This document shows, piece by piece, positions 26,972 through 53,303 of a stretch of DNA of 64,000 nt. The translations under genes were made by a program, and so were the position numbers. The stretch spans positions 124,001 to 188,000 of the forward strand of contig WBUH01000001.1 in assembly GCA_008933805.1 (NCBI GenBank), in the 5' to 3' direction. The stretch is from Bacteroidota bacterium. Lineage in GTDB: Bacteria; Bacteroidota; Bacteroidia; UBA8524. The notes beneath the pieces were generated by a model. It did no database searches and was not told the origin of the DNA. It was given only the letters and a program-made list of their open reading frames with translations. Every line of letters begins with the position of its first letter. The stretch's first letter is position 1.

Positions 26972-27025
26972 ATGTTTGCCCCGGCCTACCGGCATAACCG
27001 GAAGGGCGCGGGGCTTTTGTTAGTA

Positions 27026-27364: not shown

Positions 27365-27367
27365 GGT

Positions 27368-29408: not shown

Positions 29409-29441
29409 TGTATTTTCCTCTTATCTTGTTTTGTACTGTAA

Positions 29442-30620: not shown

Positions 30621-30637
30621 AATTGTTACGCAAAGAT

Positions 30638-30738: not shown

Positions 30739-30771
30739 GTACAAAAGGGGTTTACCATCTTTGTGAGTGAA

Positions 30772-32785: not shown

Positions 32786-33005
32786 ACAGTTTGAAACAGT
32801 GAAAACACTGTTAATGGATATTGGCCTTGGGGCAATAAACATAGTGGCTTGGACAGCCAGCATATCACAAGGGTTAAACCTGTTACAGCAAATAGCAACA
32901 TTGGTTGTAACAGGGTTAAGCATCTACCTGCTCATCATGCGGATAAAGAAGTTTAAAAAGCAAAAAAACAACAACGACGATGGAGACAACCTTTTTATTG
33001 GATAA
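32769..33005 (+). CDS. Small membrane protein, holin-like
   Basis: A 78-residue protein with two hydrophobic segments (IGLGAINIVAWTASI and IATLVVTGLSIYLLIM) and a basic, Asn/Asp-rich tail. It overlaps the terminase stop by 17 nt and the next gene's start by 26 nt. Size and topology fit a class II holin. Its position between terminase and a gp36-like gene is unusual for one, so the function remains a guess. Confidence 0.5.
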   Translation: MQLDGKQFETVKTLLMDIGLGAINIVAWTASISQGLNLLQQIATLVVTGLSIYLLIMRIKKFKKQKNNNDDGDNLFIG

Positions 33006-33525: not shown

Positions 33526-33554
33526 TAATTAAACGGTGTTTAAACCCTGTATAA

Positions 33555-34871
33555 ATGAATATTTTACAACGGATATTTTCAAAAAAAGAAACCCCTCAAA
33601 ATGTTGTTTCCAACGACTTGAAGCGGATGGCAAAAAAAGACCCGGGCGCCTTTATGATTTCTATCATAAAACAACAGCGCAGCCTTTTTAATAAAGAAAT
33701 AAATACTTGGAAGGCAGCAAGGGCAGAGGCATTGGACATATACAACCCAAAACGGATTTTATTAACCGAACTGTACAGGGATATTGAACTGGACGGGTTT
33801 ATCAGGGGCATTAGTAAAAACAGGGTACTCAGGGTGAGCAACAAGCCTTTTAAAATTGTAAACGGCTCTACAGGCAAAGAGGACAAGGAAAAAACACGCC
33901 TATTGCACAAACGCTGGTTTAAACTGCTAATAAAGCAAGCTGTCCGCGCATCCTATCACGGCCATAGCCTTGTGTATTTTAAAGAGCCCGACCCTGTTAC
34001 AGGGCTGTTTAAACAAATTGAATTGGTGCCCCGCGAGCACGTTGTACCCGAATGGAATGCAGTATTTCCCGACCCGCGAGGGTTTGAATATTTTGATTAC
34101 AGCCAGCCACCGTTCTCAGATTTTATAATCCCTATCGACGGGGAGGAAGATTTGGGGCTTTTTGATGCCGCTGCACCGTTGTATATCATTAAAAAGCATA
34201 GTTGGCAAAACTGGGATGAGTTTGAAGAAATGTTTGGCCTGCCTATCCGCATAGCCCAAACCGCCAGCCAGGACAAAAAGGTGCTTGCCGAGATTGAAAA
34301 ATGGATGCAGGAAATGGGCAGCGCTGCCTACGGCATATTCCCCTCAGATACGGTACTGGATATAAAAGAAAACAAGCAAACCGATGCGTTTGATGTGTTT
34401 TACCAAAAAATCAAAGGCTGTAACGAGGAGTTGGAAATACTGCTGACAGGCAACAAAAATGCCAGTCAGGAAGGGGGTACCTACGGCAAGCAGGAAGCCC
34501 TTTTGGTAGAGCAGGATGAGGTTACAAAAGACGATATGGGGTTTGTTGAGGATTTGGTGAATGATGAAATTTTGCCCCGCCTGCGTTTATACGGCTACCC
34601 TTTGGGCGAAGATGATGTGTTTGCATTTGATAACACTGAACGCTTAGGCATTAAAGAAATGGCTGACGTATATAAAGTGGTGGTAAAAGACATGGGGTTT
34701 GAGGTGGACGAGGAGGAGATGAACGAGCGACTGAGCATAAAAACCAATGGCCGCCGTAAACCAACAAAAGCCGCCGAACCTTTGGCCGACAAAAACAAAC
34801 AGGAGGTTTTGAAAAACTTTATTGCCCAACAGAAAGCAATAGCCAAGCTGTATTTTAACAAAGATGTGTAA
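33555..34871 (+). CDS. Portal protein (DUF935, Mu gp29-like)
   Basis: A 438-residue protein. The text LLTELYRDIELDGFIRGISKNRVLRV, LVPREHVVPEWNAVFPDPRG, EEMFGLPIRIAQTAS and ITDAFDVFY-like stretches fit DUF935 portal proteins. It forms the ring through which DNA enters and leaves the head. It overlaps the MuF-like gene start by 8 nt, the standard neighbour. Confidence 0.88.
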   Translation: MNILQRIFSKKETPQNVVSNDLKRMAKKDPGAFMISIIKQQRSLFNKEINTWKAARAEALDIYNPKRILLTELYRDIELDGFIRGISKNRVLRVSNKPFKIVNGSTGKEDKEKTRLLHKRWFKLLIKQAVRASYHGHSLVYFKEPDPVTGLFKQIELVPREHVVPEWNAVFPDPRGFEYFDYSQPPFSDFIIPIDGEEDLGLFDAAAPLYIIKKHSWQNWDEFEEMFGLPIRIAQTASQDKKVLAEIEKWMQEMGSAAYGIFPSDTVLDIKENKQTDAFDVFYQKIKGCNEELEILLTGNKNASQEGGTYGKQEALLVEQDEVTKDDMGFVEDLVNDEILPRLRLYGYPLGEDDVFAFDNTERLGIKEMADVYKVVVKDMGFEVDEEEMNERLSIKTNGRRKPTKAAEPLADKNKQEVLKNFIAQQKAIAKLYFNKDV

Positions 34872-36138
34872 CAGGGCCGCGCATATAGTTATGGAGCTTC
34901 CCTATGCCATTCGCAAAAAGCTGGATGAATTGGGAAACAGTATGGCAAACAAGCTGTGGAACGGTGAAATTACCGCAAAAGGCATCCATACCGCTACATC
35001 GGTTTATACATTTAAAGAGTTGCGCAAGGGGCTGTTTAAGACTTTGGGAGGGGGGTTTGATACCCTGAAACCCGGCACGCCTTTATACAACCGCGCCGCA
35101 CAAATAGAACTGGATGCCCTTTTGTTTTCTGCCCTGAAAAACAACCGGCTGTGCGCGGCCATGTCTTCATTAAAAAGTTTTGGGGTGGATAAAGAAACCT
35201 TTATGCGTGAGTTTAAGCTGGCATTTGATACCAGCTATATTACCCAACTGGATGCAGAACTGGATCATGTACGGGCGGTAACCGAAAGCGCAAAACAGTG
35301 GAGCGAAGCAGTAGAACGCGCAGCAGACGGGTTTGACTGGCTTAAATACCATACCATGCAGGATGAGAGGGTGCGCGATGAGCACCGACCATGGGACAAT
35401 ATAAAACTACCCCTTACGCACAGCTTTTGGCGCACGCATTACCCTCCCAATGGTTACCGCTGCCGCTGTTATGCTACCAGCGATTTTGAAGGTCCCGAAG
35501 TACACCCTTTGGAAAGCGAATTAAAAGCCAACCCATTGGCAGCGGAATTCCGCCGGAACTTTGGCGCGGACGGCAAAGCCTTTACCGGCTCACCCACCCA
35601 CCCCTATATTAAAGACTTTGATTTTGCTGCCATGCGCCCACTCAATCTTCAAATCAATGCCCTGAAAACAGAACTACAGGCATATACACAAGTGAAGGGC
35701 ACAGCAGTATATGAACACCCGCTAATTAACCCTGCTGAGGTAGAAATGAACCGAAAACAGGCTGTGCGCCTGTCAAAAACTACCGGGGCAAAAATCACAC
35801 TTACCCCTGATGCAAAACTTACGGGTTTTAAAAACCCCGACAGTATTGCCGCAAAAAAACCAGTTGAATTTAAGCACATCACGGGCAGCAACGTAACTAA
35901 CACCATAAAGCGGGATGTAAGCCATGCAGGCAAGCAAGGGGCGCACACTGTGTGCCTTTTTATCGAAACTGAGGCATATAATAAGGCCGCCGTAATACGT
36001 GCATTAAAAGCGGTGGCCGGACAGCCCGAAAATTACACCGGGGTAAAACTTATCGTGCTGCAATTGGATTTTTTGGAAACGGATATACTGATTGAACGGG
36101 ACAGAATAGGGGACTTTGATTTTGATATGCTGCCCTAA
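34864..36138 (+). CDS. MuF-like minor head protein with C-terminal CdiA-type nuclease-like domain
   Basis: A 424-residue protein. The first 240 residues are an SPP1 gp7/Mu F-type head morphogenesis domain: DEHRPWDNIKLPLTHSFW, then HYPPNGYRCRCYATSDF. From about residue 300 a separate domain contains GAKITLTPDAKLTGFKNPDSI, KPVEFKHITGSN and VTNTIKRDVSHAGKQGAHTV. This resembles the C-terminal nuclease domains of CdiA/polymorphic toxins (xNPD...E-x-K, then NxI...A.KQ). Such MuF fusions may be ejected into the host cell with DNA. Toxin activity is inferred. Confidence 0.75.
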   Translation: MCNRAAHIVMELPYAIRKKLDELGNSMANKLWNGEITAKGIHTATSVYTFKELRKGLFKTLGGGFDTLKPGTPLYNRAAQIELDALLFSALKNNRLCAAMSSLKSFGVDKETFMREFKLAFDTSYITQLDAELDHVRAVTESAKQWSEAVERAADGFDWLKYHTMQDERVRDEHRPWDNIKLPLTHSFWRTHYPPNGYRCRCYATSDFEGPEVHPLESELKANPLAAEFRRNFGADGKAFTGSPTHPYIKDFDFAAMRPLNLQINALKTELQAYTQVKGTAVYEHPLINPAEVEMNRKQAVRLSKTTGAKITLTPDAKLTGFKNPDSIAAKKPVEFKHITGSNVTNTIKRDVSHAGKQGAHTVCLFIETEAYNKAAVIRALKAVAGQPENYTGVKLIVLQLDFLETDILIERDRIGDFDFDMLP

Positions 36139-36243
36139 AACGCCAAAAGCCACCTTGCGGCAGCTTTTGGTTGGAGCCGTCGCCGCTTGTGGTTAGCAAA
36201 CTGGCGGCGGCAAAACAGTACAAATATAATAAAGAACGGTGAA

Positions 36244-38175
36244 ATGAAAAAATCGCTTGAGTATGTGATTAATATGCGCCCCGGCGATATGCGCGGGGTA
36301 GATATGGGCAAGGCTAAAGTAATGGGGCTGGATAGGGCCGTTAAAACCTTGGGCAATGATTTTGCCAAAAGTACCCAAACACTGGCTACGCAGATTGACC
36401 GCAGCATGGGCCAGCTTACCACCCGGTTAGACAGGCACATGCGCATTATGGGCCACAAATATAACAAGGCACTTGGGGTGATGGGTAACAATGGTGGGGG
36501 GGGTGGTAAGTCAGGTGGAGGTGGGTTGTTTGAAATGGGTGCATTATCACGGTTTCTTGCCCCGGCAGCTATTATAGGGGCCGGAAAAATGGCTATTGAT
36601 TTTTCTGATCAGGCTACAGAGGTTAAAATGCAGGTGCAAAGCCTTGATAATGCTATCAAGTTTGCCAACGCAAAAGAAGGTGAAAAAAACCTGTTGTATT
36701 TAGACCAAACAGCCAATAAGCTGGGTAATGATTTGATGGCTGCCAAAGAGGGGTTTGCCCTGTTAAGCGCGGGGGCATTGGGCACTAAAATAACCAATGT
36801 TCAGGTAAAGGATATGTACGAAAGTGTGGCCGGGGCACTTACGGTGATGGGCAGGAGTGCCGAAGACCAAAAGGGCACTTTTTTAGCCCTTAGCCAAATC
36901 ATGGGCAAGGGCAAGGTACAGGCCGAGGAATTGAGGGGTCAGATAGGTGAGCGCATACCGGGGGCGTTTAACATCGCAGCGCGGGCAATGGGGGTAACCA
37001 ATGCCCAATTGGATAAAATGATGGCAGACGGTAAACTGATGGCCGAAGACTTTTTACCCAAATTTGCTGCGGAATTAAAGCGAACTTTTGCCAGCGGTTT
37101 GCCAACAGCAATGCAAAGCACCCGTGCTGAAATGACCCGCATTGAAAACCAAACCGTAAAAACAATGGCGGTACTGGGTGATCAGTTGGAAGGGGTAAGT
37201 TTGGGGTGGAAACAAGTGAAACTGGCGGCTATGCAAGCACTCAGTGAGTATTTACCTAAACAGGACGTTGCAAAGCCATTGTACGCTGTTAATGCGGAAC
37301 TGAATAAAAATTTTGAAACACTGCAAAGTTTAATTCCCGGAACTGAAGAATATAATGCGTTGCGGGAAAAGATTAACTCCACCTATCCCCAATACCTGCA
37401 AAACCTGATAACTGAAAAAGATACGCTTTGGGATTTAAAGTATGCGCAGGAACAGGCAAACGAAGTTATGAAAGCCCGAAGGGTGGGGATGATTGGGAAA
37501 GAGCGTATAAAAGAACTTGAGGAGGAAAAGCGGGCCACCTTACACTTAATGGCCTACAGCGAGCGCAAAATACTTGATGTGGAAGCCCGGCGCAGAATGG
37601 GGGACAAAGCAGGGTTGTTTGAAGCCAATTTTAACGATCAAATATCGCAACACCTAAAACTTATAGACGGAGCCAAAAATGCCCTTACTGAAATAGACAA
37701 TAAAATTACCCGTGAGCGGGATATAACCTTTAAAGTTAGTTTTGAAGGTAACCGCAGGGGTTTGTTGAACGACGCAAAAAGCATACAGGAGTTAGCTATG
37801 GCGATGTACGGGCAAAACGCAGGTGATTATAGCAAGGCCAGCCCGCAGGCAATTGCCGGGTTAGTAACTGCTGCTAACCGTAAATTTGGGAGCCAGGTGC
37901 AGTTTAGTTCTTTTGGATTAAAACAGGACAAAAAAGGGAACTGGGTATTTGGTTCTGATGATGCTACCGGTGTGGCCGGTGGCGGTTCGGGTTCACCGTA
38001 CAGCCCCACAGTATCGGCGGGGCGCAGCGTGCGCAACGTAAGCGTGCAAATTGAAAACCTTATACGGGAATTTACAGTTAACACCAGCAGCACCAACGAG
38101 GCCATCCCGGACATGAAACGCGGGGTAACCGATTCGCTTACCCGTGCTGTAACTGATTTTGAAAGCGCATTGTAA
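36244..38175 (+). CDS. Tape measure protein
   Basis: A 643-residue protein. The N-terminal tape-measure domain spans about residues 90-290 (DFSDQATEVKMQVQSLDNAIKFA, LSQIMGKGKVQAEELRGQIGERIPG), preceded by a Gly-rich linker. The rest is helical, with coiled-coil stretches, and ends with a Ser/Thr-rich tail. It sets tail length. I chose the ATG at 36244 because an earlier start lacks conservation. It lies in the + block with head genes, although its usual chaperone partner is on the - strand 12 kb away. Confidence 0.85.
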   Translation: MKKSLEYVINMRPGDMRGVDMGKAKVMGLDRAVKTLGNDFAKSTQTLATQIDRSMGQLTTRLDRHMRIMGHKYNKALGVMGNNGGGGGKSGGGGLFEMGALSRFLAPAAIIGAGKMAIDFSDQATEVKMQVQSLDNAIKFANAKEGEKNLLYLDQTANKLGNDLMAAKEGFALLSAGALGTKITNVQVKDMYESVAGALTVMGRSAEDQKGTFLALSQIMGKGKVQAEELRGQIGERIPGAFNIAARAMGVTNAQLDKMMADGKLMAEDFLPKFAAELKRTFASGLPTAMQSTRAEMTRIENQTVKTMAVLGDQLEGVSLGWKQVKLAAMQALSEYLPKQDVAKPLYAVNAELNKNFETLQSLIPGTEEYNALREKINSTYPQYLQNLITEKDTLWDLKYAQEQANEVMKARRVGMIGKERIKELEEEKRATLHLMAYSERKILDVEARRRMGDKAGLFEANFNDQISQHLKLIDGAKNALTEIDNKITRERDITFKVSFEGNRRGLLNDAKSIQELAMAMYGQNAGDYSKASPQAIAGLVTAANRKFGSQVQFSSFGLKQDKKGNWVFGSDDATGVAGGGSGSPYSPTVSAGRSVRNVSVQIENLIREFTVNTSSTNEAIPDMKRGVTDSLTRAVTDFESAL

Positions 38176-38753
38176 TGCAACAAAACCGTAACTACATAAC
38201 CTTTGAGCGGATAAAGCAAAATTTTCGCAACCGCAACCATGTGGCTATGCGCAATATTGCTTTTTTGGCTGCCCAGTTTTTCCGCGAAAACTTTAAGCGG
38301 GGCGGGGTACAAAACGGCACTTTTACCCCTTGGAAACAACGCAAGTTTGAGTTTCCCGGCAAGCGCAGGCAATTGTTGTACAAAGGGGGCGAGTTATTCA
38401 GGGGCATACAGCACATGACGGCACGCAACAAGGCCATTGTATTTAATAACGTAAACTATGCGCTTATACACCAGCAGGGCGGCGAAATACCCGTTACCCC
38501 TGCTATGCGCCGTTTTTTTTGGGCAATGGCCTATAAAGCCGGTGCAGGCAAATCATTAAAAAAAGACGGAACGCCTGGCAACAGCCAAAAAAACAAAAGC
38601 CTTGACGCTGCGGGTGAAATATGGCGCAACCTTGCTTTAACCAAAAAACAAACCCTTACCGTCCCCTCACGCCCTATATTTTACCATAGTGTTGATTTGG
38701 AACGTAAAATAGAACGGTATATAAACACACACATTCAATCATTACAGCGATGA
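38175..38753 (+). CDS. Phage virion morphogenesis protein (Mu gpG-like)
   Basis: A 192-residue protein with FFRENFKRGGVQNGTFTPWKQRK, then LLYKGGELFRGIQHMTARN and IHQQGGEIPVTP, which are hallmarks of the gpG/virion morphogenesis family (head-tail or tail completion). It shares a base with the tape-measure stop and overlaps the next gene by 4 nt. In Mu, gpG binds to the tail-head junction region. Confidence 0.82.
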   Translation: MQQNRNYITFERIKQNFRNRNHVAMRNIAFLAAQFFRENFKRGGVQNGTFTPWKQRKFEFPGKRRQLLYKGGELFRGIQHMTARNKAIVFNNVNYALIHQQGGEIPVTPAMRRFFWAMAYKAGAGKSLKKDGTPGNSQKNKSLDAAGEIWRNLALTKKQTLTVPSRPIFYHSVDLERKIERYINTHIQSLQR

Positions 38754-39295
38754 GTATAAAGAAAAACCTATTTTTAGCCCTTCAGGAACAATTACGCACT
38801 GTTGACCGTATGCAGTGGGTGGATAAGAACATGGGACAGGTACGCCTGTTGGATGATACCGGTGCGCTGGTACCCATGCCCGCAGTACTGATTGAATTTA
38901 GCGAGGCCGCTTATGCACGCACAGGGGCAGGGGTGCAACGCGGGCAATGTGTAGTACGCTTTACCGTGTTGTATGAAAACTATGCCGACAGCCATGCGGA
39001 CAGCACCAACAAAGATGTTGCGCTGCGCTATTTTGATTTTACCGAAGCGGTTTATAAAGCACTTGAGGGGTTTGAATATCCCGGATGTACACCTTTAACA
39101 CGAATGGGCGAAGAGGAGGACAACGACCATAGTAATTTTATTGTAACCAACCTGATTTTTGCCACTGAGATTACCGATGATTCAGCAGCGCAAAAAACTA
39201 TACCGCTGGGCAAATCCCTTGAAGTGAACGCTACATTTAAAACGCCAAGCTCAAGGCCTGAAGACACCACAAAAACCGATTTTGTAATCCCATAA
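38750..39295 (+). CDS. gp37-like tail terminator protein
   Basis: A 181-residue protein, beginning MSIKKNLFLALQEQLRTVD, with a PAVLIEFSEAAYARTGAGVQRG region and later strands (VVRFTVLYENYADSH). The pattern resembles small tail terminator or completion proteins (Mu gp37-type). It is the last gene of the + block and ends at a bidirectional hairpin. Confidence 0.6.
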   Translation: MSIKKNLFLALQEQLRTVDRMQWVDKNMGQVRLLDDTGALVPMPAVLIEFSEAAYARTGAGVQRGQCVVRFTVLYENYADSHADSTNKDVALRYFDFTEAVYKALEGFEYPGCTPLTRMGEEEDNDHSNFIVTNLIFATEITDDSAAQKTIPLGKSLEVNATFKTPSSRPEDTTKTDFVIP

Positions 39296-42667: not shown

Positions 42668-43912
42668 TTAGGTAAATTCGTATCTGTCTTCGTTTTCAAT
42701 AATTTTTGTGGTAAAAGGAAATGCGTCGGCGGGCACTTTCTCAATTTGCTGCATCAGGGTTGATGAGCCTGTAAACACCACCCGCTTATCGCCATTGAGG
42801 GTTATTTGAAGGTGAAGGCATTTACCCGTGCCTTTGTCTGTGTATTTTGAGCCTCCTATTTTATAGGCCACTACCGATATTTCTTTGTTAAGTATTTTCT
42901 TTATAGCGATTTTCTCGCCTGTGAAACTCTTATTTTCAATAATTATGTTCAGGTCACTAAACTTTCTCATAAGTTCATTGTATAGGTTAATGCAATCTGC
43001 ATGGGTAAGCCACCCGTTATAGGATGCTATTGTTTGTGGGTTGGCTCCTTTGGCCAGCTTGCGGGCAAAATTTTGCTTAATGCTTTTGCGTACCAGCGTA
43101 TGGGTATGGTAAAACTTATACCCGATAAAATCAAGGCTACGGCTTGCAACAGGGAACACCTGATAGTTACTTTTAACTTCCAATTTCAGGTTTTCGGTAA
43201 GGTATTGGCGTATATCAGCCAGTAGGGTATGCAGGTAGGGTTTATTGTCGGCAAGTATTACTATATCATCCGCGTATCGAAAGTAATATTTCACGCCCTT
43301 TTTTTCCTTTAACCAATGGTCAAAATAGCAAAGGTAGAAGTTGGCAAGGTACTGTGATAAGTAATTTCCGATGGGCAAACCGGGCGCGCTATCTATTATT
43401 TCATCCAACAGGTATAACAAATCGTTATCCTTAAACTTGTGCCTCAACAAAGCCTTTAATACATCGTGGTTGATGCTGGGATAGAATTTTTTAATATCCA
43501 GCTTTAGGCAATACCGGGTGCCGGGTTCATCTGTAAGGGCACGGCGAATGGTATAAAAAGCATTGTGTATGCCCTTGCCCCTGATGCAGCTATATGTATC
43601 GGCTGTAAATACCGATTTGAAAATAGGCTCCAACACATTCATAATAGCGTGGTGGCAAATCCGGTCGGGGAAATAAGGCAACCTAAATACCTCGCGCTCT
43701 TTGCCCTCGTTTACAATAAAAGTAGTGTACGGTGATGTTTTGTAGGTTTTAGACAATAAAAGATGTTGCAGGCTCAGCAAATTGGCCTCGGCATTCTTTT
43801 TATGAATGCCAACCCCATATTGTTTGCTTTTGCCTCGTTGCGCCTTTTTATCAGCTAAACGAAGGTTATCGAGCGTGCAAATATTACCGTATATGTTGCC
43901 TATCTTTTTCAT
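42668..43912 (-). CDS. DGR reverse transcriptase with C-terminal extension
   Basis: A 414-residue reverse transcriptase. The catalytic Asp 139 lies in LKLDIKKFYPSI, the DGR-diagnostic motif is IGNYLSQ at 181-187 (group II intron RTs have QG...SP), and YADD is at 213-216. It copies the template RNA with adenine-specific errors. After the thumb (about residue 330) there is an extra 80-residue segment ending FTGSSTLMQQIEKVPADAFPF, which resembles a stand-alone small protein I associate with Bacteroidetes phages rather than a usual RT tail. The template repeat lies 107 bp upstream. No Avd-type gene adjoins. Confidence 0.93.
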   Translation of the reverse strand: MKKIGNIYGNICTLDNLRLADKKAQRGKSKQYGVGIHKKNAEANLLSLQHLLLSKTYKTSPYTTFIVNEGKEREVFRLPYFPDRICHHAIMNVLEPIFKSVFTADTYSCIRGKGIHNAFYTIRRALTDEPGTRYCLKLDIKKFYPSINHDVLKALLRHKFKDNDLLYLLDEIIDSAPGLPIGNYLSQYLANFYLCYFDHWLKEKKGVKYYFRYADDIVILADNKPYLHTLLADIRQYLTENLKLEVKSNYQVFPVASRSLDFIGYKFYHTHTLVRKSIKQNFARKLAKGANPQTIASYNGWLTHADCINLYNELMRKFSDLNIIIENKSFTGEKIAIKKILNKEISVVAYKIGGSKYTDKGTGKCLHLQITLNGDKRVVFTGSSTLMQQIEKVPADAFPFTTKIIENEDRYEFT

Positions 43913-44018
43913 GCCTTTGCTTTCAAAAAGTCTTTTTCGCCTCGGCTACCAAAGCCTTTTCTCATTTGTTTATTTTTTGCCGTGTTGGCAGGGTTTGTGC
44001 CGCTTATATCTTTATCTC

Positions 44019-44093
44019 GCATAGGTGCGAGCTGCAATTCGTATTCGTATTCCAGTTATCGTAGTTCGAATCATCGAAACCAACGCCGCCGGG
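44019..44093 (-). repeat. DGR template repeat (TR), 75 bp
   Basis: The noncoding template repeat lies between target 1 and the reverse transcriptase. In coding orientation it would read PGGVGFDDSNYDNWNTNT plus NCSSHLC, with Asn codons AAC/AAT at the variable sites, as is typical of DGR templates. It has 19 adenines on the minus strand. All three variable repeats differ from it only at those adenines. Confidence 0.95.
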
Positions 44094-44139
44094 AAACCGA
44101 GCACCGCGCCGCAACTCATGCAGCACACAACCCAAAGTT

Positions 44140-44622
44140 TTAACCTGCTATCAAAAAGAACTCCTTATACAAATCCTCAAATTGCTTTCCTGCATACAGT
44201 GCCAGTTCTTTCGACCTGTAGCAAAGGCGCGAGCCGCAACCCGTAACCGTAAACCAGCTACCGTAGCCCGAATCATCGAAACCAACGCCGCCGGGACGGA
44301 AGTCTTTTAGCCACACGGTGTATTTTATTTGGTTGCTATCCGTCCAGTCAGGTGTCCATCCCTGATTAAGGGCTTTGGCTATTATTTTCAACTTACGATA
44401 GGCTATTTCGTCACTTGTCATGCCTTGCGGCGGGCACCAGTCCTCACCGGTTATTGCCAGCGCATCTTCAAAGGTTTTTACCAAGTCGGTAATTTTTTGG
44501 TTAAACGGCTCCCTGCCGTATATTGCCTCAAGGGCGGCACGGGTTTTATCATCGCCGTTGCTGTAAGCCGCAAGCACATCAGCCTGCTTTGCTTCTAAAA
44601 CTTTTATTGTTTTTGTACACAT
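44140..44622 (-). CDS. DGR target protein 1
   Basis: A 160-residue protein. The first 60 residues are a helical leader (MCTKTIKVLEAKQADVLAAY) and the shared scaffold starts near TFEDALAITGEDW. The variable repeat encodes GGVGFDDSGYGSWFTVT plus GCGSRLC and is followed by YRSKELALYAGKQFEDLYKEFF. It has no signal peptide, transmembrane segment or fibre repeat. The start is 9 bp after the preceding 50-codon gene, and the TR follows 46 bp after the stop. It shares the scaffold with targets 2 and 3. Function unknown; a ligand-binding surface made of the variable residues is inferred. Confidence 0.9.
   Translation of the reverse strand: MCTKTIKVLEAKQADVLAAYSNGDDKTRAALEAIYGREPFNQKITDLVKTFEDALAITGEDWCPPQGMTSDEIAYRKLKIIAKALNQGWTPDWTDSNQIKYTVWLKDFRPGGVGFDDSGYGSWFTVTGCGSRLCYRSKELALYAGKQFEDLYKEFFLIAG
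44221..44295 (-). repeat. DGR variable repeat 1 (VR1)
   Basis: 75 bp aligned to the TR without gaps, with 13 differences, all at TR adenines (coding strand). The remaining 62 positions are identical. It lies in the C-terminal part of target 1, about 80 bp from the stop codon. Confidence 0.95.
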
Positions 44623-44631
44623 AATTATTTG

Positions 44632-44784
44632 TTATTGTTTTAATTCGTTTTCAGTTATTTCTATACGGTTATTAATTTCATACCGTAAGCCCTTTAAAAG
44701 TTCTAAATACTCTGTGGTTTCAAGGTCGGCCACGCTATCGTCCAAAGTGCCTAAAATGTGTTGTTCTATTATCTGTGCGTCCAT
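44632..44784 (-). CDS. Small phage protein (50 aa)
   Basis: A 50-residue acidic helical protein (MDAQIIEQHILGTLDDSV..., ending ITENELKQ). The start overlaps the DUF3164 stop by one base (TAATG) and the stop is 9 bp from target 1's start, which argues for a real translated gene in the operon. Function unknown. Confidence 0.6.
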   Translation of the reverse strand: MDAQIIEQHILGTLDDSVADLETTEYLELLKGLRYEINNRIEITENELKQ

Positions 44785-45452
44785 TATTCACAAACTCCTT
44801 TCTGCGGTATGGCCAATTGCGCAAAGCGCAACTCCACGTTTTTGTATTCGCCGCTTGCATCGCGCTCATAGGCTTCTATAAAAGGCTTGCTTTCTACAGG
44901 CGCATAAGCGGCCATAATGATGTCCACACCATCCGCAAACAGGGGGTTGTTTATCTTTTCTTTTAGTTTTACAAGCTGCATTACGCGGTTGGGGTTAAGG
45001 TTGCCCGCTTTATCGGGGTTCAGCAGGTTCATTACCAGTTCAGTTAAATTGGCACTATTCTCATCCTTTGCCAAGCTGGTGATGTATTGTTTCACTTTCT
45101 CTACCCCGGCACTTTCAGTACCATCCCAGCGTGTTAGCATCTTCACCCCAATGATTATGCGGTACCTGCCATCCTGGGTGGTGAAGGTGTGTGTTTTCTG
45201 TCCGTTCTTAACATCATACACCTCCTGCTTAGTTTCCAACAGGGCTTTTAGTTCATTGTACGCAAGTGTTTTGGCATCTGATAGCTGGTTAGCGGCCTGC
45301 GTCAGCTTATCAAACACATCTCCCACAGTGCTATCTACAATAGCTTTGTATTGCTGCTTCTTGTCTTTTTCGGCCTGCTGCTCTGCCTCCATTTCTTTTA
45401 AAAGTGCGGCCTTATCTTCAGCTGATAAATTGGCCAGTGTTACGTTGCTCAT
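44784..45452 (-). CDS. DUF3164 family protein
   Basis: A 222-residue protein typical of Mu-like early regions: a charged coiled-coil N-terminus (LLKEMEAEQQAEKDKKQQY), then TFTTQDGRYRIIIGVKMLTRWDGTESAGVEKV. DUF3164 is of unknown role, probably in replication or DNA handling. It is a marker for transposable phages and lies amid their early genes. Confidence 0.85.
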   Translation of the reverse strand: MSNVTLANLSAEDKAALLKEMEAEQQAEKDKKQQYKAIVDSTVGDVFDKLTQAANQLSDAKTLAYNELKALLETKQEVYDVKNGQKTHTFTTQDGRYRIIIGVKMLTRWDGTESAGVEKVKQYITSLAKDENSANLTELVMNLLNPDKAGNLNPNRVMQLVKLKEKINNPLFADGVDIIMAAYAPVESKPFIEAYERDASGEYKNVELRFAQLAIPQKGVCE

Positions 45453-45485
45453 ATTATTGTTGTTTAAATCGGTTTTAATTGTTGT

Positions 45486-45659
45486 TTAACTGTTATTAGC
45501 TGGGCTATTTTCGGCGGTTATTAACCTTTCGGCATCCGTCTCTTTTTCCCGCAGCCAAATTTGCATTTGTGCAAGCTGCTCATGGCTTAAACTTGAGTTT
45601 TTCATGCGTTCTTTCAGTTCAGCTATTTCAGCAAGTAGTTGTGCTATTTTGTCAGGCAT
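45486..45659 (-). CDS. Small coiled-coil phage protein (57 aa)
   Basis: A 57-residue protein (MPDKIAQLLAEIAELKERMK..., ending ITAENSPANNS) with a heptad-like first half. Its start overlaps the end of the 45652-46017 gene by 8 nt and its stop lies 33 bp ahead of the DUF3164 start, so it fits the operon. Function unknown. Confidence 0.6.
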   Translation of the reverse strand: MPDKIAQLLAEIAELKERMKNSSLSHEQLAQMQIWLREKETDAERLITAENSPANNS

Positions 45660-46017
45660 ATTCAACCTCCTTTGTTTTAAGTACCTCGTTAGGTGGGAAA
45701 GCCTTTATCTTTTCGGGCAGGTGTGCCTTTTTCCATTCGGTTCGCAAAAACCGAAGCAGCCCCTCATTTTTACCGGCATATTGGTAGCTGTGCAAAAACA
45801 CGTCATCCGCTATTGCAAACTGGTTTTCCCACCATGCCCAATAAAGTGCGCTGTGTGTTTTTAGCTGGGCGATAAGGTGGCAAAAGCTGTTGGCCTCGGC
45901 GTAGGCTACACCGCTGGCAAAAACAAGCTCAAAATACTCCTCTGCGGTGATGCCCAGCATAGCCAGCACTTGCCCGCGTATGTCTTCACCGTATTGTTTA
46001 GCTTTACTATTACCCAT
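45652..46017 (-). CDS. Hypothetical phage protein (121 aa)
   Basis: A 121-residue helical protein (MGNSKAKQYGEDIRGQVLAMLGITAEEYFELV...), with a Trp-rich middle (ALYWAWWENQFAIAD). It overlaps both neighbours by about 8 nt. Proteins of this type are common in Bacteroidota Mu-like early operons, with no known role. Confidence 0.55.
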   Translation of the reverse strand: MGNSKAKQYGEDIRGQVLAMLGITAEEYFELVFASGVAYAEANSFCHLIAQLKTHSALYWAWWENQFAIADDVFLHSYQYAGKNEGLLRFLRTEWKKAHLPEKIKAFPPNEVLKTKEVEYA

Positions 46018-46639
46018 GTTGCACCTCCATTCTGTGTGGGCATAGTATTAGGTTCCGCACAGGGTAGCGTATGCTGTAGTCATTGCCCTCGGCATCCTTA
46101 CCGGCTACCCATCCGTTTGCAAGTCTTTCCATATCAATAGTATGCCCGCTCCACAAGCTGGCGTGCAGGGGTTTACTGTCAACTACCACATTGTTTTCGT
46201 TCACAAACCATTTGGTAAAATCCTGCCCTTCATCTTTAAACTCTATTATCCACTTCACAAGGCCCATTACGCGCGCAATACTGTGCTGCTCTCCGCCTGC
46301 CATAAAAAAGTTACCACTTTGGCTGTATGTGGCCCCGCGCTCCACTTGCAGGGCGTAGGTTTCCCCTTTCTTTTCGCAGTACAGCCAACAGCCCTCGGTA
46401 AACCGGTCGTTAAAGTCATCTACTACGTGTGCAGCATCCAACCAGGCGAGGCTTACCATTGCGCTGTGCACAAGGTCATAGTTGGCTTTAAACGCCACCT
46501 CATGCTCGCTGATGTGTTCGGCAGGGCTTAGTATTTTACATTGGCGCAAACCGGGGTGGACGTGCGCCCAAACAGAACTGCCTACGGGATATAGCAGGTT
46601 AAATAGTTCTGCGGTGATAATGTTGTTTTGGGTTTTCAT
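46010..46639 (-). CDS. Hypothetical phage early protein (209 aa)
   Basis: A 209-residue protein (MKTQNNIITAELFNLLYPVGSSVWAHV...), with a beta-type first half and LVKWIIEFKDEGQDFTKWFVNENN further on. No domain is recognised. It lies 15 bp from the NTPase gene on the same strand and overlaps the 121-residue gene by 8 nt. Confidence 0.55.
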   Translation of the reverse strand: MKTQNNIITAELFNLLYPVGSSVWAHVHPGLRQCKILSPAEHISEHEVAFKANYDLVHSAMVSLAWLDAAHVVDDFNDRFTEGCWLYCEKKGETYALQVERGATYSQSGNFFMAGGEQHSIARVMGLVKWIIEFKDEGQDFTKWFVNENNVVVDSKPLHASLWSGHTIDMERLANGWVAGKDAEGNDYSIRYPVRNLILCPHRMEVQHG

Positions 46640-46654
46640 TAGTGTTATACTTGG

Positions 46655-47302
46655 TTATTGTTCAATTTCTTGTTGGCCCCAATACTCAGCCGCCCCCTCT
46701 TCCCAAATGGTGTATTCTTTTGTTGCGCCCCACGTGCGCCCGTTGCTGAACGCCTTAAAGCCTTCTACCCATATTTTCAAATCAGCATCGTATTTTATAT
46801 CGTCTGCCAGTGTGCCCTTTGGCCGTTTTCCGTCGGCTTGGCTAAAAAATACCAGTAGCTTTTTACGGGCGTATTTTTCTGCAAACTGCCTGTACCACTT
46901 GGTGTTTACGTGCATATACTGCACGGTGTTTATTATCACTATTTCAGGGCTGCGGGGCTTGCTTAATCGTGCATCCAATGTGGCCATATCTTCCTTGCGC
47001 ACCAGCACTTTGCCCTGCGCACTGCTTAGCCCGTACCGCAGCGCATTTACCTTAAAGGTGTGCCTGCCCCCCTCTTCCAAATCATCAATAAATACATCGC
47101 CATATTCGCTCAGCATTTTGGCAAGCTGTATCATAAAACTACCCTTGCCGCTGCCGCTGTTTCCCCACGCCAGCCATACACCTGTACGCTCCGGCTCACC
47201 AAAGGCATCGTGCCAAGCCCCCTTGAGCGGTAAAAGTTCAAACTCCTGCTCTATTACGTTTTTGGCGGTAAGGGCGCGGGGTATGCGTTCTTTGGTGCTC
47301 AT
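46655..47302 (-). CDS. RecA-like/AAA NTPase of Mu-like early region
   Basis: A 215-residue P-loop protein: Walker A in WLAWGNSGSGKGSFM, and a Walker B-like strand in SPEIVIINTVQYMH. The rest fits a RecA-fold ATPase of a kind frequent in Bacteroidota transposable phages. It overlaps the MuB-like gene by 4 nt. It may act in transposition or DNA replication; the exact role is unknown. Confidence 0.75.
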   Translation of the reverse strand: MSTKERIPRALTAKNVIEQEFELLPLKGAWHDAFGEPERTGVWLAWGNSGSGKGSFMIQLAKMLSEYGDVFIDDLEEGGRHTFKVNALRYGLSSAQGKVLVRKEDMATLDARLSKPRSPEIVIINTVQYMHVNTKWYRQFAEKYARKKLLVFFSQADGKRPKGTLADDIKYDADLKIWVEGFKAFSNGRTWGATKEYTIWEEGAAEYWGQQEIEQ

Positions 47303-48198
47303 GCCTGCCCTCCCGTGTTTGCAAGCAGCAAAGTTTCAGCCCTGCGAAGGCCGCCAATCTCACCATTTGCATCGCTGGCAAGGCAGGTTTTTACCAGCTC
47401 GTTCAGCTTGGTTTTGTCGGCCATGTTTACGCTCAGTACATCGGTTATCAGCTGTTGGTAAAACTTCAAACGGTCGTTGCGGTCAATGGGCACAATGCTC
47501 ATAAACTTGTCGCCCAGCCTGCTGAAAATCTCCCTGAAACCCACCTTTTCGTTATTAATACCCCTGCGTATTTTAGCGCGGAAGCCTTCGGCACCCATCA
47601 GGTAGTACCCGCAGCGGCCTTCGGTAGCGTTGTACAGTTCTTTAAACTCTAAAAAGGCAGTATATTCTACATCGCCAAACTCATCCAGCAACACAACAGG
47701 GTTGGGCAGGTAATTCAGCCAGTCTTTTATGCTTTGTTTTACATCGTATATCTTGCCTTTGCTATCTAAGCCTATTGTTTTGGCAAGGGCGCGTATAAAC
47801 TGTACTTTGCCTTTTGATTGCGAGCAGTCCATGTAAAAGCAATTGGTGAGGGTTTTGGCGAGGTATTTTGCAGTGTATGTTTTCCCTATCGCGCAATCAT
47901 CCACAAACACAAGGCTTTTGCTATGCTGCTGGCAAAACACCACATCGTTGTGTATCGCCTCAAACACCTTTGTTTTTGCCATTTTCCAACGGGTTTGCCC
48001 GGCGGTTATACCCAACTCGCGGGCAAGCCTAAGCCACTCGGCATCGGTAAGTATGCGCTCAGTTTCGCCGTTTTTCATGCGACTATAAATACTTTTGCTA
48101 AGTGCCCACTGTGTGGCAAAAGCAGCATCGCTGCCCGTAAACTTATCGCGCTGCCCCAAAAGGGCTTTTACTACGGTTTGTTTAAATTCTATATTCAT
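47299..48198 (-). CDS. MuB-like AAA+ ATPase (transposition target selection)
   Basis: A 299-residue ATPase. An N-terminal HTH-like region (QWALSKSIYSRMKNGE) resembles MuB. Walker A is AIGKT in VDDCAIGKTYTAK, and Walker B is VVLLDEFGD. MuB binds target DNA, activates the MuA transposase and gives immunity. It lies 12 bp after the transposase stop, as in Mu. Confidence 0.9.
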   Translation of the reverse strand: MNIEFKQTVVKALLGQRDKFTGSDAAFATQWALSKSIYSRMKNGETERILTDAEWLRLARELGITAGQTRWKMAKTKVFEAIHNDVVFCQQHSKSLVFVDDCAIGKTYTAKYLAKTLTNCFYMDCSQSKGKVQFIRALAKTIGLDSKGKIYDVKQSIKDWLNYLPNPVVLLDEFGDVEYTAFLEFKELYNATEGRCGYYLMGAEGFRAKIRRGINNEKVGFREIFSRLGDKFMSIVPIDRNDRLKFYQQLITDVLSVNMADKTKLNELVKTCLASDANGEIGGLRRAETLLLANTGGQA

Positions 48199-48210
48199 GG
48201 ATGGTGTATT

Positions 48211-50286
48211 TTAAAATCTGCTTATGAAATCGGTTTTAAGTGTGTTGTTGGCTGGCACAAAGGCCATTTGCTCCTCTTCATCAAAGAGGGGCAACTCCTC
48301 TGCCTCTGTGTCCTCAAAATGGTAGGTTTGTAGTTCGGGTATATCAAAACTGCCTGTAAGCGGTTCGTTGTCTATTATGGTTACACTGTCTATCCGCTTG
48401 GCGGCGGTTTTATAAAACGCAGTTACGGTGTTTTGGTAGGCGCTGTTTATTATCAATACCTCGTCATCCGCTGCCGTGCGCTCTAATGCCCCGTGGTTGT
48501 ATGCAGTTTCGTTTATCAGTTCGCATACCAGCTTATTATCAGGGGTATATACAAGGGCTTTCAGCACATTGCCTTTGGCATCGTCCAGCCAGCGCACCAG
48601 CACTTTTTTGCCTTCTATCTGCCGCATGATGTTTATCAGGTCGGTGCCTATGGCCACCTTACCGTCAAAACCTACCTTGCGCTGTTTGTGCTGTAGCCTT
48701 ATATACCCGGCCTCCATGCTGGTTTCAACCACTTTGCCCAAGTGGGGCAATAGGCCCGCCCAATTGGTGGGGTATTTTTCAAGCTCAGGGTGCTGTTTTT
48801 TATTGAAAACATCCCACCTTGTCATTGCGGGGTGAAGCTCTTGGTTGGGGTGGGGCATATTGTTCCAGTCCTTTATCGCACGCAGCACTATCTGCACTAT
48901 CTCTTGCTGGGTGTAGTATATCTGCTTTTCGCGCCCGGGGCGGTGGGCATCGGTGCGGGCAAAAGGTCGGGCTTTAAAGCCGGGCACCTGCCGCTCCATC
49001 ATCAGGGCAAAATCCCTGAAATACCGCTCTATCACTTTACCCCTTGCGTTGTTGGCTTCAATACGTACCCGCTGAAACATGGCCCCGTTTTGCAAAAATG
49101 TGGTTTCAAAGCTGCTGTTTAGGCTTCGTTCACCTTCCATCTCGTAGGGCAGGTGTTTGCCATACCGTTCGTAGGCGCGGCACATTTCTTTATAAAACTC
49201 TGTAATAATGCCCTTTTTGCTTGCGCCAAACACCCAAGTGGTAAATGCTGTACTGCCCACATCTATACCCATGTAGGCCCATATACGTTTACCGGGCGCA
49301 TACTCAAACTTGGGTTGCCTGTCATCCACACTTATCAGCGTTCCGGCAAACATGGGGCGATAGCGCTGGTGGTGGGGCACCATTTTCTTAAACACCTGGT
49401 CGTTACCCTCGCGTTTGCTGGTGGCTCCTATATTTACCTCCCACATGGTTTGGTAGCGGTACACCGTTTTGTCGCTCACCACCTTAAAATCGGGGTGGTT
49501 ATAATCGTAGGGGGTTTTGGTAGCATTGTTTATAATGTCCAGTTGTCCCTGCAAAAAGCGGTTGTATGTGGCCCATACCTCTGTATAGTTTGGTTTTTTG
49601 CCCTTTTGCCCGGCATATATGTTTGTCCACAGTTCAATCATTAAGGGGGTTGCAAGCTGGGCGTTGCTGTTTTTGTGGTAGCCGGGTATAAGGGTATCGT
49701 AACCGTTTTTCAGGTAGTCGTTCAGTTTGTGGCGCAGTTTATCGCTGTTGGGCAGGCTGTGCACATAGCCGTATTTTTCGCGTAACACCTCGTTAAAGGT
49801 GTGCACATCTTTTATCAGGGTGTCCCATATACGGGTGCTGCCGTGTTTCTTTTTGCGCTCGGTAAGCCGTTTGGCCTTCACTTTTGCAAGGGCATTCAGC
49901 ACGCTGGCATTTACCGTATAGCGCAGCTTTTGCTCTTCTTTTATAAACTGGCCGTCATCAAACACATAGCGGTCATAATGGGCACGCGCGGCCCCGTCAA
50001 GCTCATAATGTGCCTGTAGCGGGTGGGCGGTTTGTTTTGGGCTGCCCCACTTTTGTACCAGCACCTGCTGCTCTTCGTTGGTTAGTGCATTAAACCGTAC
50101 CAACGCCTCATTGCCATAGCCGCGCCCCTGCTTTAAACGAAAGTCTTTTTTGCGATAGGCTCTTTTTAAGTAAACATCGTAACTAAACAGCCCTACGCTG
50201 TGGGTATGGCGGCGGTCATCGTCGGTTAGCAGGTAACTTATCCGCACTCCGTATTCGTTATCGTATATTTCGTAGGGGCCGTTCAT
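48211..50286 (-). CDS. MuA-type transposase
   Basis: A 691-residue DDE transposase. The integrase core begins near residue 315 (GTLISVDDRQPKF, catalytic Asp 321) and includes WAYMGIDVGSTAF and VRIEANNARGKVIERYF (Glu 420). At the second acidic site the text reads MEGERSLNSSF, with Glu 384 exactly 36 residues ahead of Glu 420 in place of the usual Asp, so the triad appears to be D-E-E. The C-terminal part resembles the MuB-interacting domain. It catalyses replicative transposition of the phage. Confidence 0.92.
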   Translation of the reverse strand: MNGPYEIYDNEYGVRISYLLTDDDRRHTHSVGLFSYDVYLKRAYRKKDFRLKQGRGYGNEALVRFNALTNEEQQVLVQKWGSPKQTAHPLQAHYELDGAARAHYDRYVFDDGQFIKEEQKLRYTVNASVLNALAKVKAKRLTERKKKHGSTRIWDTLIKDVHTFNEVLREKYGYVHSLPNSDKLRHKLNDYLKNGYDTLIPGYHKNSNAQLATPLMIELWTNIYAGQKGKKPNYTEVWATYNRFLQGQLDIINNATKTPYDYNHPDFKVVSDKTVYRYQTMWEVNIGATSKREGNDQVFKKMVPHHQRYRPMFAGTLISVDDRQPKFEYAPGKRIWAYMGIDVGSTAFTTWVFGASKKGIITEFYKEMCRAYERYGKHLPYEMEGERSLNSSFETTFLQNGAMFQRVRIEANNARGKVIERYFRDFALMMERQVPGFKARPFARTDAHRPGREKQIYYTQQEIVQIVLRAIKDWNNMPHPNQELHPAMTRWDVFNKKQHPELEKYPTNWAGLLPHLGKVVETSMEAGYIRLQHKQRKVGFDGKVAIGTDLINIMRQIEGKKVLVRWLDDAKGNVLKALVYTPDNKLVCELINETAYNHGALERTAADDEVLIINSAYQNTVTAFYKTAAKRIDSVTIIDNEPLTGSFDIPELQTYHFEDTEAEELPLFDEEEQMAFVPANNTLKTDFISRF

Positions 50287-50308
50287 TTTTTCACTATCTT
50301 GGGGGCTT

Positions 50309-50316
50309 TATTTTTG
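50309..50316 (+). promoter_or_regulatory. Promoter -7 element of the plus-strand gene at 50323
   Basis: TATTTTTG matches TAnnTTTG and lies 6 bp ahead of the ATG, which implies a leaderless or near-leaderless transcript. It is divergent from the transposase start at 50286. Confidence 0.45.
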
Positions 50317-50322
50317 CTGTGT

Positions 50323-50673
50323 ATGAAAGCTGATGTTATTATTGGTAGGGTGGTAATTTCTCACTACAATGAAGAGGGGACTACTGCATCAAAATCAACT
50401 CCTACCCCAGTGGTTCAAGGTTTTATTGCTTCTGTTTGTACTTTGTTTAAATTGCCTTTCCCCGCAATACGCTTCGTAAAATCTTCCGATGTTGTTTCAT
50501 CTGACGAGTTAGATGTAATTTGGGAAGTGTATGAATTTCATTTACCAAATGAGGATAAGGACAGCAAATGGGCTTACAAGAGGGTTCTTGGTGGCGTTGC
50601 TGATTATCTGTTAAGCCAGTCTTTATTTCTTGATTGTATTTATCAAACGTATCCATATAAAGTTCCTTTTTAG
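50323..50673 (+). CDS. Hypothetical phage protein, divergent from transposase
   Basis: A 116-residue protein (MKADVIIGRVVISHYNEEGTT..., later FHLPNEDKDSKWAYKRVLGG). It is one of only two plus-strand genes in the early region (the other is the repressor), set between the transposase and DGR target 2. The ATG at 50323 is preferred because a promoter-like element lies just upstream; an earlier in-frame start would overlap the promoter. Function unknown; its position would suit a small regulator of lysis-lysogeny or transposition. Confidence 0.55.
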   Translation: MKADVIIGRVVISHYNEEGTTASKSTPTPVVQGFIASVCTLFKLPFPAIRFVKSSDVVSSDELDVIWEVYEFHLPNEDKDSKWAYKRVLGGVADYLLSQSLFLDCIYQTYPYKVPF

Positions 50674-50689
50674 TTTATTAAAATTGCTA

Positions 50690-50734
50690 CCCTGTGGCTG
50701 AATCGAACAGCCCGCCTTAGCGCACCGTGCAGGG
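50690..50734 (-). other. tRNA T-arm-like hairpin
   Basis: The minus strand contains GGCTG-TTCGATT-CAGCC, a perfect T-arm with canonical T-loop, enclosed by CCCTG...CAGGG. No full cloverleaf could be drawn from the surrounding bases. It may be a tRNA remnant or an RNA element between target 2 and the convergent gene end. Confidence 0.3.
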
Positions 50735-50744
50735 AGTGGGGCTG

Positions 50745-51197
50745 TTATAACAACATCCCGCTGTATATGTCCTCAAACTGGATGCTGGCGTAGATACACA
50801 GCTCTGCCGAGGCAAAGCAAAGGCGCGAGCCGCAATGCGTATGCGTATCCCAGCCAACGCAGCCCGAACCAACGAAACCAACGCCGCCGGGGGCAGCCTC
50901 ATCTTTTACCATCCAAAAACGGGGCTCGTACTTCCACTGGTCACTATCGGTATAGTCGGGTGTCCACCCGTCGTTCAGCGCTTTGGTTATTACCATTGCC
51001 TTGTAGTGGTTAATAACGGGGGTTTGAAATTCCTGCGGCAGGTAGGCCACTTCGGGCAAGGCGGTGGGGTCAACTCCCAATTTTGCGCAGGCATCCTCAA
51101 AGGTTTTAATGGCTTTTGCACCTTCGGGCAGGTTGTTCAGGTCAAGCTCGTGGTGGGCAAATGCGCCCTCAAGGGTTTTAAAATTTTCGTTTTTCAT
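50745..51197 (-). CDS. DGR target protein 2 (remote)
   Basis: A 150-residue paralogue of target 1. The helical N-terminal half (FKTLEGAFAHHELDLNNL, FQTPVINHYKAMVITKAL) is followed by NDGWTPDYTDSDQWKYEPRFWM and the variable repeat GGVGFVGSGCVGWDTHT plus HCGSRLC. The C-terminal helix is FASAELCIYASIQFEDIYSG. It lies about 6.7 kb from the TR and is separated from target 3 by 15 bp. No signal peptide, membrane or fibre feature. Its N-terminal half differs more from targets 1 and 3 than the repeat region does. Confidence 0.88.
   Translation of the reverse strand: MKNENFKTLEGAFAHHELDLNNLPEGAKAIKTFEDACAKLGVDPTALPEVAYLPQEFQTPVINHYKAMVITKALNDGWTPDYTDSDQWKYEPRFWMVKDEAAPGGVGFVGSGCVGWDTHTHCGSRLCFASAELCIYASIQFEDIYSGMLL
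50817..50891 (-). repeat. DGR variable repeat 2 (VR2)
   Basis: 75 bp aligned to the TR without gaps, with 14 differences, all at TR adenines. The remaining 61 positions are identical. Confidence 0.95.
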
Positions 51198-51212
51198 GGT
51201 GTTTTTTGGGGT

Positions 51213-51560
51213 TTAGTTGAAAAATTGGTTATACAGGTCACGGAATTGCTTTCCGGCATACATGGCAATTTCAGCAGAGGGGTAGCAAAGGCGCGAGCCG
51301 CAATACGTAACCGAATTCCAGTAATCGCAGCCCGAATCAACGAAACCAACGCCGCCGGGCTGGTAGTTGTACAGCACTACGGTGTATTTACGCTCTTTGC
51401 TATTAGTCCAGTCGGGTGTCCACCCTTCGTTCAGGGCTTTTGCTACTATTTTTAGCTTTTCATAAGCAATGGTATCGGCACTAAGGCCGTCGGGCAGGTT
51501 AAAGGTTTCGCCGGTAGCTGCCAGCGCATCTTCAAACGTTTTGATGTTTTGGTAATTCAT
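51213..51560 (-). CDS. DGR target protein 3 (remote)
   Basis: A 115-residue protein, the most compact form of the shared scaffold: FEDALAATGETFNLPDGLS, then IAYEKLKIVAKALNEGWTP, DWTNSKERKYTVVLYNYQ, and the variable repeat GGVGFVDSGCDYWNSVT plus YCGSRLC, ending PSAEIAMYAGKQFRDLYNQFF. It is closest to target 1 along its whole length. It is 15 bp upstream of target 2 and shares its transcript. Because it is so short, the variable residues make up a large part of the protein's surface. Confidence 0.9.
   Translation of the reverse strand: MNYQNIKTFEDALAATGETFNLPDGLSADTIAYEKLKIVAKALNEGWTPDWTNSKERKYTVVLYNYQPGGVGFVDSGCDYWNSVTYCGSRLCYPSAEIAMYAGKQFRDLYNQFFN
51285..51359 (-). repeat. DGR variable repeat 3 (VR3)
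   Basis: 75 bp aligned to the TR without gaps, with 12 differences, all at TR adenines. The remaining 63 positions are identical. Confidence 0.95.
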
Positions 51561-52604: not shown

Positions 52605-53303
52605 ATGGGCATTAAAGAAAATCTAATAGAAGTTCGTAAAGCACTTAATCTAAGCGCCACTGATTTCGCTAAGGCTATTGATACTACACCAGCGAATTAC
52701 GGTCATATTGAAGCGGGAAGGCAAAAACCAACTATAGAATATCTACAAAGAATTTCTGAACGATTTAAGGTTTCCTATAGATTTTTAATTGATGGGCAAG
52801 GGTTGATGTTTTTAGAAACATCTGAAAATAAACAGATGGGTTATAACACCCCCAGTAGTGAAATAACGGTAGCAGCAGATCCGCCTGCTGTATATCACAA
52901 CCTAAAAGGCATACCTTTAGTGCCTATTGAGGCTTTTGCGGGTAAGGGTGCCGGTGATTTTGTTGTGATGGATAAAGATGTTTTAGATAATTACTACATC
53001 CCTGAGTTTAAAAAGGCAGATTTTATAATACCTGTTCGTGGCGAAAGTATGATGCCCACCTATAATTCGGGCGATTTGGTGGCCTGTAAAAAACAAAGCA
53101 AAGATGCTTTTATTGTATGGGGTAGTATTTATGTGCTTGATACGGTGAATGGTGTGCTGATAAAACGCATACACAAGGGTGTAAGTTTATCCACTTGGAT
53201 ACTGCGCAGTGATAATGCTGTTTTTGAAGATATTCTTATACAGCCTGATACGGATGTTTACAATATAGCCCGCGTTTTAGGAGGCATACGCTCAGAAGGT
53301 TAA
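52605..53303 (+). CDS. Prophage repressor (XRE HTH + S24 peptidase)
   Basis: A 232-residue protein. The N-terminal XRE domain is LSATDFAKAIDTTPANYGHIEAGRQKPT. The C-terminal S24/LexA-like domain has FIIPVRGESMMPTYNSGDLVA (catalytic Ser in ESMMP) and VNGVLIKRIH (catalytic Lys). Such repressors maintain lysogeny and are inactivated by RecA-stimulated self-cleavage. An AG-type cleavage site may be in EAFAGKGAGD. It is divergent from the early genes and reads over its own operators. Confidence 0.9.
   Translation: MGIKENLIEVRKALNLSATDFAKAIDTTPANYGHIEAGRQKPTIEYLQRISERFKVSYRFLIDGQGLMFLETSENKQMGYNTPSSEITVAADPPAVYHNLKGIPLVPIEAFAGKGAGDFVVMDKDVLDNYYIPEFKKADFIIPVRGESMMPTYNSGDLVACKKQSKDAFIVWGSIYVLDTVNGVLIKRIHKGVSLSTWILRSDNAVFEDILIQPDTDVYNIARVLGGIRSEG

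Follow-up and report, generated by a model that had tools for sequence, protein, structure and literature searches.

A DGR with three small targets in the early region of a Mu-like prophage, and its relatives among Bacteroidetes phages

To our knowledge, the diversification of tail fibres is the explanation nearly always given for DGRs in phages. DGRs are already known from phages and from Mu-like prophages, as in BPP-1 and Hankyphage, and a non-structural phage target is known from Quimbyvirus. The tail fibre is nonetheless the best-studied phage DGR target, and a global survey found the targets in virus-dominated DGR clades to be mostly annotated as tail proteins (PMC8144416). In the Bordetella phage BPP-1, five mismatches between the template repeat (TR) and a 21-bp segment of the IMH set the direction of transfer (PMC3240598). 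Hankyphage p00 of Bacteroides, a transposable prophage of the Mu-like kind, carries a DGR (PMC6199706, PMC12135933) that is active and diversifies the tail fibre (PMC12135933). Quimbyvirus (Quimbyviridae) has at least two targets, including a non-structural one, and an RT that extends over overlapping frames (PMC8008677). Here, we describe a DGR for which Hankyphage and Quimbyvirus are the closest precedents, and whose least ordinary feature is the placement of its targets in the early transposition and replication region.

The element lies in a window of 64,000 nucleotides from the 4.3-Mb genome of a Bacteroidota bacterium. A first-pass annotation of this DNA had assigned it to a Mu-like prophage, and the surrounding genes bear this out. 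They include a MuA-like transposase (48211..50286, minus strand, phrog_310), a MuB-like DNA transposition ATPase (47299..48198, minus, phrog_296), an early-region ATPase (46655..47302, minus, phrog_6891), a DUF3164 protein that is a Mu-like early gene product (44784..45452, minus, E 2e-18), the CI-like repressor of the prophage (52605..53303, plus) and Mu-type head genes. The structural module (16415..39295), with genes for the baseplate hub, sheath, major head protein, protease, terminase, portal and tape measure, contains no variable repeat (VR). Chromosomal genes of an ordinary kind flank the prophage below ~15.4 kb and above ~54.8 kb; a search for prophage ends with a 5-bp target duplication gave no clear ends at 15.4-15.5 and 53.8-54.3 kb.

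The TR (44019..44093) is 75 nt long; of its 19 adenines, 16 belong to the mutable core. It aligns without gaps to VR1 (44221..44295), VR2 (50817..50891) and VR3 (51285..51359), all four copies being 75 nt long and on the minus strand. Recomputation of this alignment reproduced every count of the first-pass annotation: the three VRs differ from the TR at 13, 14 and 12 positions, respectively, all 39 differences fall on template adenines, the 56 non-adenine positions are the same in the TR and all three VRs, and 18/19 adenines are altered in at least one VR (15/16 within the core). The claim of a single TR with three VRs likewise held for the whole genome. A scan in which every template adenine was replaced by N and up to three mismatches were allowed returned exactly four copies, the TR and VR1-3, each with 0 mismatches, while the reversed sequence, used as a control, returned 0. 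VR1, VR2 and VR3 end 81, 72 and 72 nt ahead of the end of their ORFs, and thus lie at the 3' ends of the target genes. The core codons are AAY, TAC, GAT and ACG, in which a change of A alone cannot give a stop.

Could these be ordinary paralogous repeats that have been homogenised by gene conversion, and not a DGR at all? The target genes are indeed paralogues and are alike beyond the repeat. However, if VR1-3 are taken as independent and only position is considered, 39/39 differences would fall on adenines with a chance of about 1e-29, a figure that must be less extreme for paralogues such as these, and the strictness of the restriction excludes gene conversion in practice. Moreover, the adenine restriction recurs with different TR sequences across the family, and a DGR-type RT adjoins the repeats. 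We regard the gene conversion account as exceedingly improbable. As judged by its sequence and by the predicted fold of its RT, the element is a genuine DGR, and we are nearly certain that the DGR mechanism applies to it.

The RT (42668..43912, minus strand, 414 aa) is the sole RVT_1 match in the genome, and it contains the DGR motif IGNYLSQ that had been pointed out in the first pass. Comparison with known DGR RTs, suggested at that time as a check, gave phrog_1423 with E 1e-118 and, as the best solved relative, the BPP-1 DGR RT (8ub7) with E 3e-69, the match covering residues 1-327. The predicted fold (pLDDT 94) agrees with 8ub7 at Z 35.4 and an rmsd of 1.8 over 319 residues. On sequence and model together, the RT belongs to the DGR clade. 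The likeness to BPP-1 covers the RT fold, the adenine-specific differences between TR and VR, and a VR placed close to the target's 3' end. In contrast to BPP-1, however, the RT carries an extra C-terminal, mostly beta domain (residues 315-414; 42668..42970, minus; phrog_19665), for which sequence searches gave no convincing Pfam or PDB family. In most relatives this domain is encoded apart, by an ORF of ~98 aa that overlaps the end of the RT gene, whereas it is fused to the RT both in the window and in Hankyphage, whose RT is 33% identical to that of the window. No gene for the accessory protein Avd was found near the DGR with a bAvd model that also missed its control, the Hankyphage record for which Avd is described (PMC12135933). 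The proposal that the C-terminal domain replaces Avd was weakened by Hankyphage, which has the domain together with an annotated Avd (PMC12135933).

The spacer of ~106 nt between TR and RT (43913..44018, minus strand) is a conserved structured RNA with hairpins at about 43978-43990 and 43928-43957. Compensatory changes occur in 11/12 pairs, and 92.8% of cells are paired; the figure is 71.8% in shuffles and never above 43% when the partners are slid. The spacer of the window matches Rfam RT-17 (RF03020) over the full length of the model (positions 1-95 of 95, E 1e-3), but its 32.4 bits fall under the gathering score of 40.4. No report that links RT-17 with DGRs was found in a literature search. 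The spacer RNA is probably the part that the RT holds.

Searches with the RT and with the target protein VP3 gathered ~70 related loci, mostly on phage contigs; those in named genomes come from Flavobacterium, Galbibacter, Soonwooa and other Bacteroidetes. A script that seeks repeats differing only at adenines placed the TR of most related loci directly 5' of the RT and found between one and three VRs there, all on the strand of the TR. Once duplicate records had been removed, 37 loci with 76 VRs remained. Within the core of these, mismatches occur at 64% of template A positions versus 2.5% of C, 2.3% of G and 5.5% of T, rates that are somewhat biased towards A because the finder demands adenine-only differences. 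A template A in the core reads A, G, T or C in the VRs in 397, 359, 228 and 126 cases, respectively.

Is the cassette still at work? Two pairs of near-identical loci bear directly on this question. Between L045 and L047, changes are found at 11/48 VR sites that correspond to TR adenines, at 0/98 other VR sites, at 0/73 TR sites and at 10/9502 sites elsewhere; between L052 and L060, the corresponding figures are 11/40, 0/110, 0/75 and 14/11340. Because the changes cluster at the VR adenine sites, the cassette family is active or recently so. Change in the VR with a constant TR, which the first-pass annotation had named as confirmation of activity, is thus found in these close relatives.

Perhaps the DGR of the window itself has fallen silent, so that its VRs are a record of old mutagenesis and the element is inert through its fused RT or a missing accessory protein. 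In agreement with this, no sibling genome shows change: the RT was found in none of 60 related genomes besides its own, with no second genome of the same lineage carrying the element. The fusion of the RT to a domain that has its own ORF in most relatives, and the lack of an Avd found nearby, point in the same direction. But the RT frame is intact and has a confidently predicted DGR fold, and the 56/56 identity at non-adenine positions would be expected to decay had homing stopped long ago. In addition, the Hankyphage RT has the same fused domain, yet its DGR is active (PMC12135933). Inactivity in this lineage therefore seems very unlikely to us.

The adenine-specific differences are not all of one kind. 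The last 15 nt of the TR, AGCTCGCACCTATGC (44019..44033, minus strand), form an IMH*-like 3' end, with IMH-like marks at the corresponding positions of VR1 (44221-44235), VR2 (50817-50831) and VR3 (51285-51299). The three adenines of this TR segment, at TR positions 61, 68 and 72, are G, G and T in each of the three VRs and make up 9/39 of the differences. At the matching sites across the related loci, 83/85 VRs have G, 59/61 have G and 44/47 have T, respectively. Since these 3'-end sites are fixed across related loci, the nine are marker differences and not mutagenic hits. The first-pass reading of the whole pattern as a signature of adenine-specific mutagenic retrohoming is therefore upheld as to the mechanism, with recent activity in close relatives, but not for this IMH/IMH*-like fraction, and activity would be overestimated if every A difference were scored as a mutagenic hit.

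The VRs share a conserved Gly-Ser-Arg-Leu motif in which Gly is encoded by GGC (52/58), Arg by CGC (54/58) and Leu by CTT (57/58), while the Ser codon varies. In the RT genes of these loci, every synonym is in use. Because silent codon sites are frozen there, the VR stretch GGCTCBCGCCTTTGC is conserved as DNA and escapes overwriting. By analogy with BPP-1, GGCTCBCGCCTTTGC at the VR 3' end is best read as the IMH and its TR counterpart as IMH*; the fixed 3' sites and the frozen silent sites would together amount to an IMH in the VR and a differing IMH* in the TR. The TR-VR mismatches at the 3' end resemble those of IMH/IMH* in BPP-1 (PMC3240598), but here the marker mismatches are all at TR adenines. 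A further contrast is that no conserved hairpin was found after the VR: a search for a BPP-1-type hairpin or cruciform directly after the VR revealed no stem that recurs consistently where the repeats end on the 3' side, the TR stems being as long as the VR stems. The idea that the fixed 3' adenines break a GGC-NNNN-GCC stem was dropped, the mean best stem being 3.23 in TRs versus 3.29 in VRs. A hairpin at the 3' edge of the TR, CTCGCACCTATGCGAG, is present in locus L039 too but is not general among relatives, and was set aside. At other loci, fixed A-to-G differences also occur on the 5' side, at offsets -55 (33/33) and -48 (34/34), where the window TR has no adenine. In this clade, the fixed adenine marks provide a simple rule by which the transferred tract can be read from sequence.

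The order of the molecular steps can be proposed by analogy with BPP-1. The TR and the downstream spacer would be transcribed as a single structured RNA, and the adjacent RT would copy the TR RNA with errors at template adenines. The mutated copy would then replace the VR core at the 3' end of any of the three paralogous target genes. GGCTCBCGCCTTTGC, outside the transferred tract, would mark the VR as recipient, and the TR, with its adenine-altered version of the mark, would not itself become a recipient.

What does the DGR diversify? The targets are VP1 (44140..44622, 160 aa), VP2 (50745..51197, 150 aa) and VP3 (51213..51560, 115 aa), all encoded on the minus strand. They are paralogues whose similarity reaches beyond the repeat, and all belong to phrog_11581, a family that carries no functional annotation. 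The VP1 gene lies between the DUF3164 gene and the TR, and the other two occupy the interval from the repressor to the transposase, a placement in the early region that the first-pass annotation had not remarked on. An early placement is also found in all 15 Mu-like relatives in which early and structural genes are both visible, these being related phages and not independent cases: the targets are in the early region (15/15), between early and structural genes, and share their strand with the early genes, TerL and portal being on the other one (again 15/15). Some phages that are not Mu-like encode VP homologues beside DNA polymerase, exonuclease and a gp2.5-like SSB (L047), beside a helicase, a DNA-binding protein and a DnaC-like loader (L073), beside a dUTPase (L069) and beside a UvsX-like recombinase (L076). 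Across the family the targets are 108-207 aa long, and 72/73 homologues have no 19-residue stretch with a mean hydropathy above 1.5, that is, no stretch resembling a membrane helix. Searches of the targets against Pfam, NCBIfam and PADLOC gave no match, and no virion domain was found.

Each of the two closest precedents differs from the window in its targets. Hankyphage has one VR, described as in a tail fibre, and an annotated Avd, while the three small targets of the window lie in the early region and belong to another family. In Quimbyvirus, one target adjoins the tail fibre genes and the non-structural one is located in a defence-related island, in a comparison of the targets by their description. 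BPP-1 differs as well, in that the window has three targets, all outside the structural module. A literature search that covered a minority of subscription papers found no description of a conserved DGR lineage with early-region targets only.

The DGR could nonetheless be of the ordinary phage type, with receptor-binding or virion-decorating targets that are encoded among early genes by chance and that allow host-range switching as in BPP-1. The predominance of tail proteins among surveyed targets (PMC8144416) and the diversified tail fibre of Hankyphage, which is Mu-like too (PMC12135933), argue for such a function. On the other hand, the targets are outside the structural module and on the early strand at every informative locus, they sit among replication genes in unrelated phages, the structural genes of the prophage contain no VR, and proteins of this size showed no virion domain. 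We consider host-range switching a serious possibility that falls somewhat below an even chance. Because the targets sit with early or DNA-replication genes and are without membrane signals, the tail-fibre reading does not follow and an intracellular role is favoured, although gene position speaks to such a role indirectly.

The targets would then be small soluble proteins, most likely acting inside the infected or lysogenic cell and binding variable host or competitor factors. An intracellular role, considered by itself, has in our judgement equal prospects of being right or wrong, and the joint reading, an active DGR that diversifies early and probably intracellular phage proteins, stands very slightly better than even. 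A more specific proposal, that phrog_11581 is a DGR-kept pool of hypervariable, early-expressed intracellular proteins in a widespread Bacteroidetes phage lineage, for example counter-defence proteins or host-factor binders, is tentative and falls just short of even probability. The conserved cassette recurs in dozens of phage contigs, where it diversifies small paralogues encoded near genes for transposition or DNA replication, and it has done so recently. The question of what phages diversify apart from adhesins can thus be taken to the bench, with phrog_11581 as the protein family to study. If the intracellular reading is true, these phages make a repertoire for use within the cell and not at the cell surface.

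Searches for a solved relative of the target gave no PDB match, a negative that is no proof of a new fold. As to a C-type-lectin-like domain that might hold the variable residues, the variable part of the model is poorly resolved and of low confidence. The helical N-terminal part of the target is predicted with confidence, and the best fold matches are uncharacterised phage proteins, crAss-like ones among them.

Among the related loci, three non-Mu phages carry a third target gene with a variable repeat (VR), located at 14814-15401 in L047, 9111-9698 in L045 and 7822-8409 in L048. This gene lies about 6.4 kb from the template repeat (TR) in all three phages, and is directly preceded by a phage DNA polymerase gene. 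The same phages seem to be without an ORF for the C-terminal domain of the reverse transcriptase (RT). At another related locus, L063 (8764-9403), TR and RT are separated by about 560 nt; in most members of the family this gap measures about 107 nt.

Longer homologues of the targets occur in four further loci (L069, 7675-8268; L073, 7833-8456; L074, 7866-8450; L075, 6508-7092), each with a variable-looking stretch that is rich in Ser, Ala, Asn and Tyr. Neither RT nor TR was found in the examined sequence of these four loci; the longer homologues may depend on a DGR located far away, or may have been targets only in the past. A weak relative of VP2 is located immediately upstream of the transposase in L017 (1002-1394), the same placement as that of VP2 and VP3 in the window; the adenine-only finder, a script that seeks repeats differing only at A, detected no VR in this relative.

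Elsewhere in the window's own genome (G000), seven genes of the Avd-related family 23S_rRNA_IVP are distributed over contigs C3, C6, C11, C14 and C16 (L083-L089), none of them near the DGR.

In the window itself, TGTCCACCTAAA is repeated three times in tandem at 53920-53955, past the repressor and close to where the prophage is presumed to end. Positions ~15489 and ~54204 are joined by an inverted match that is imperfect (14/16). A D12-class adenine DNA methyltransferase (15532-16323) is encoded at the prophage's opposite end.
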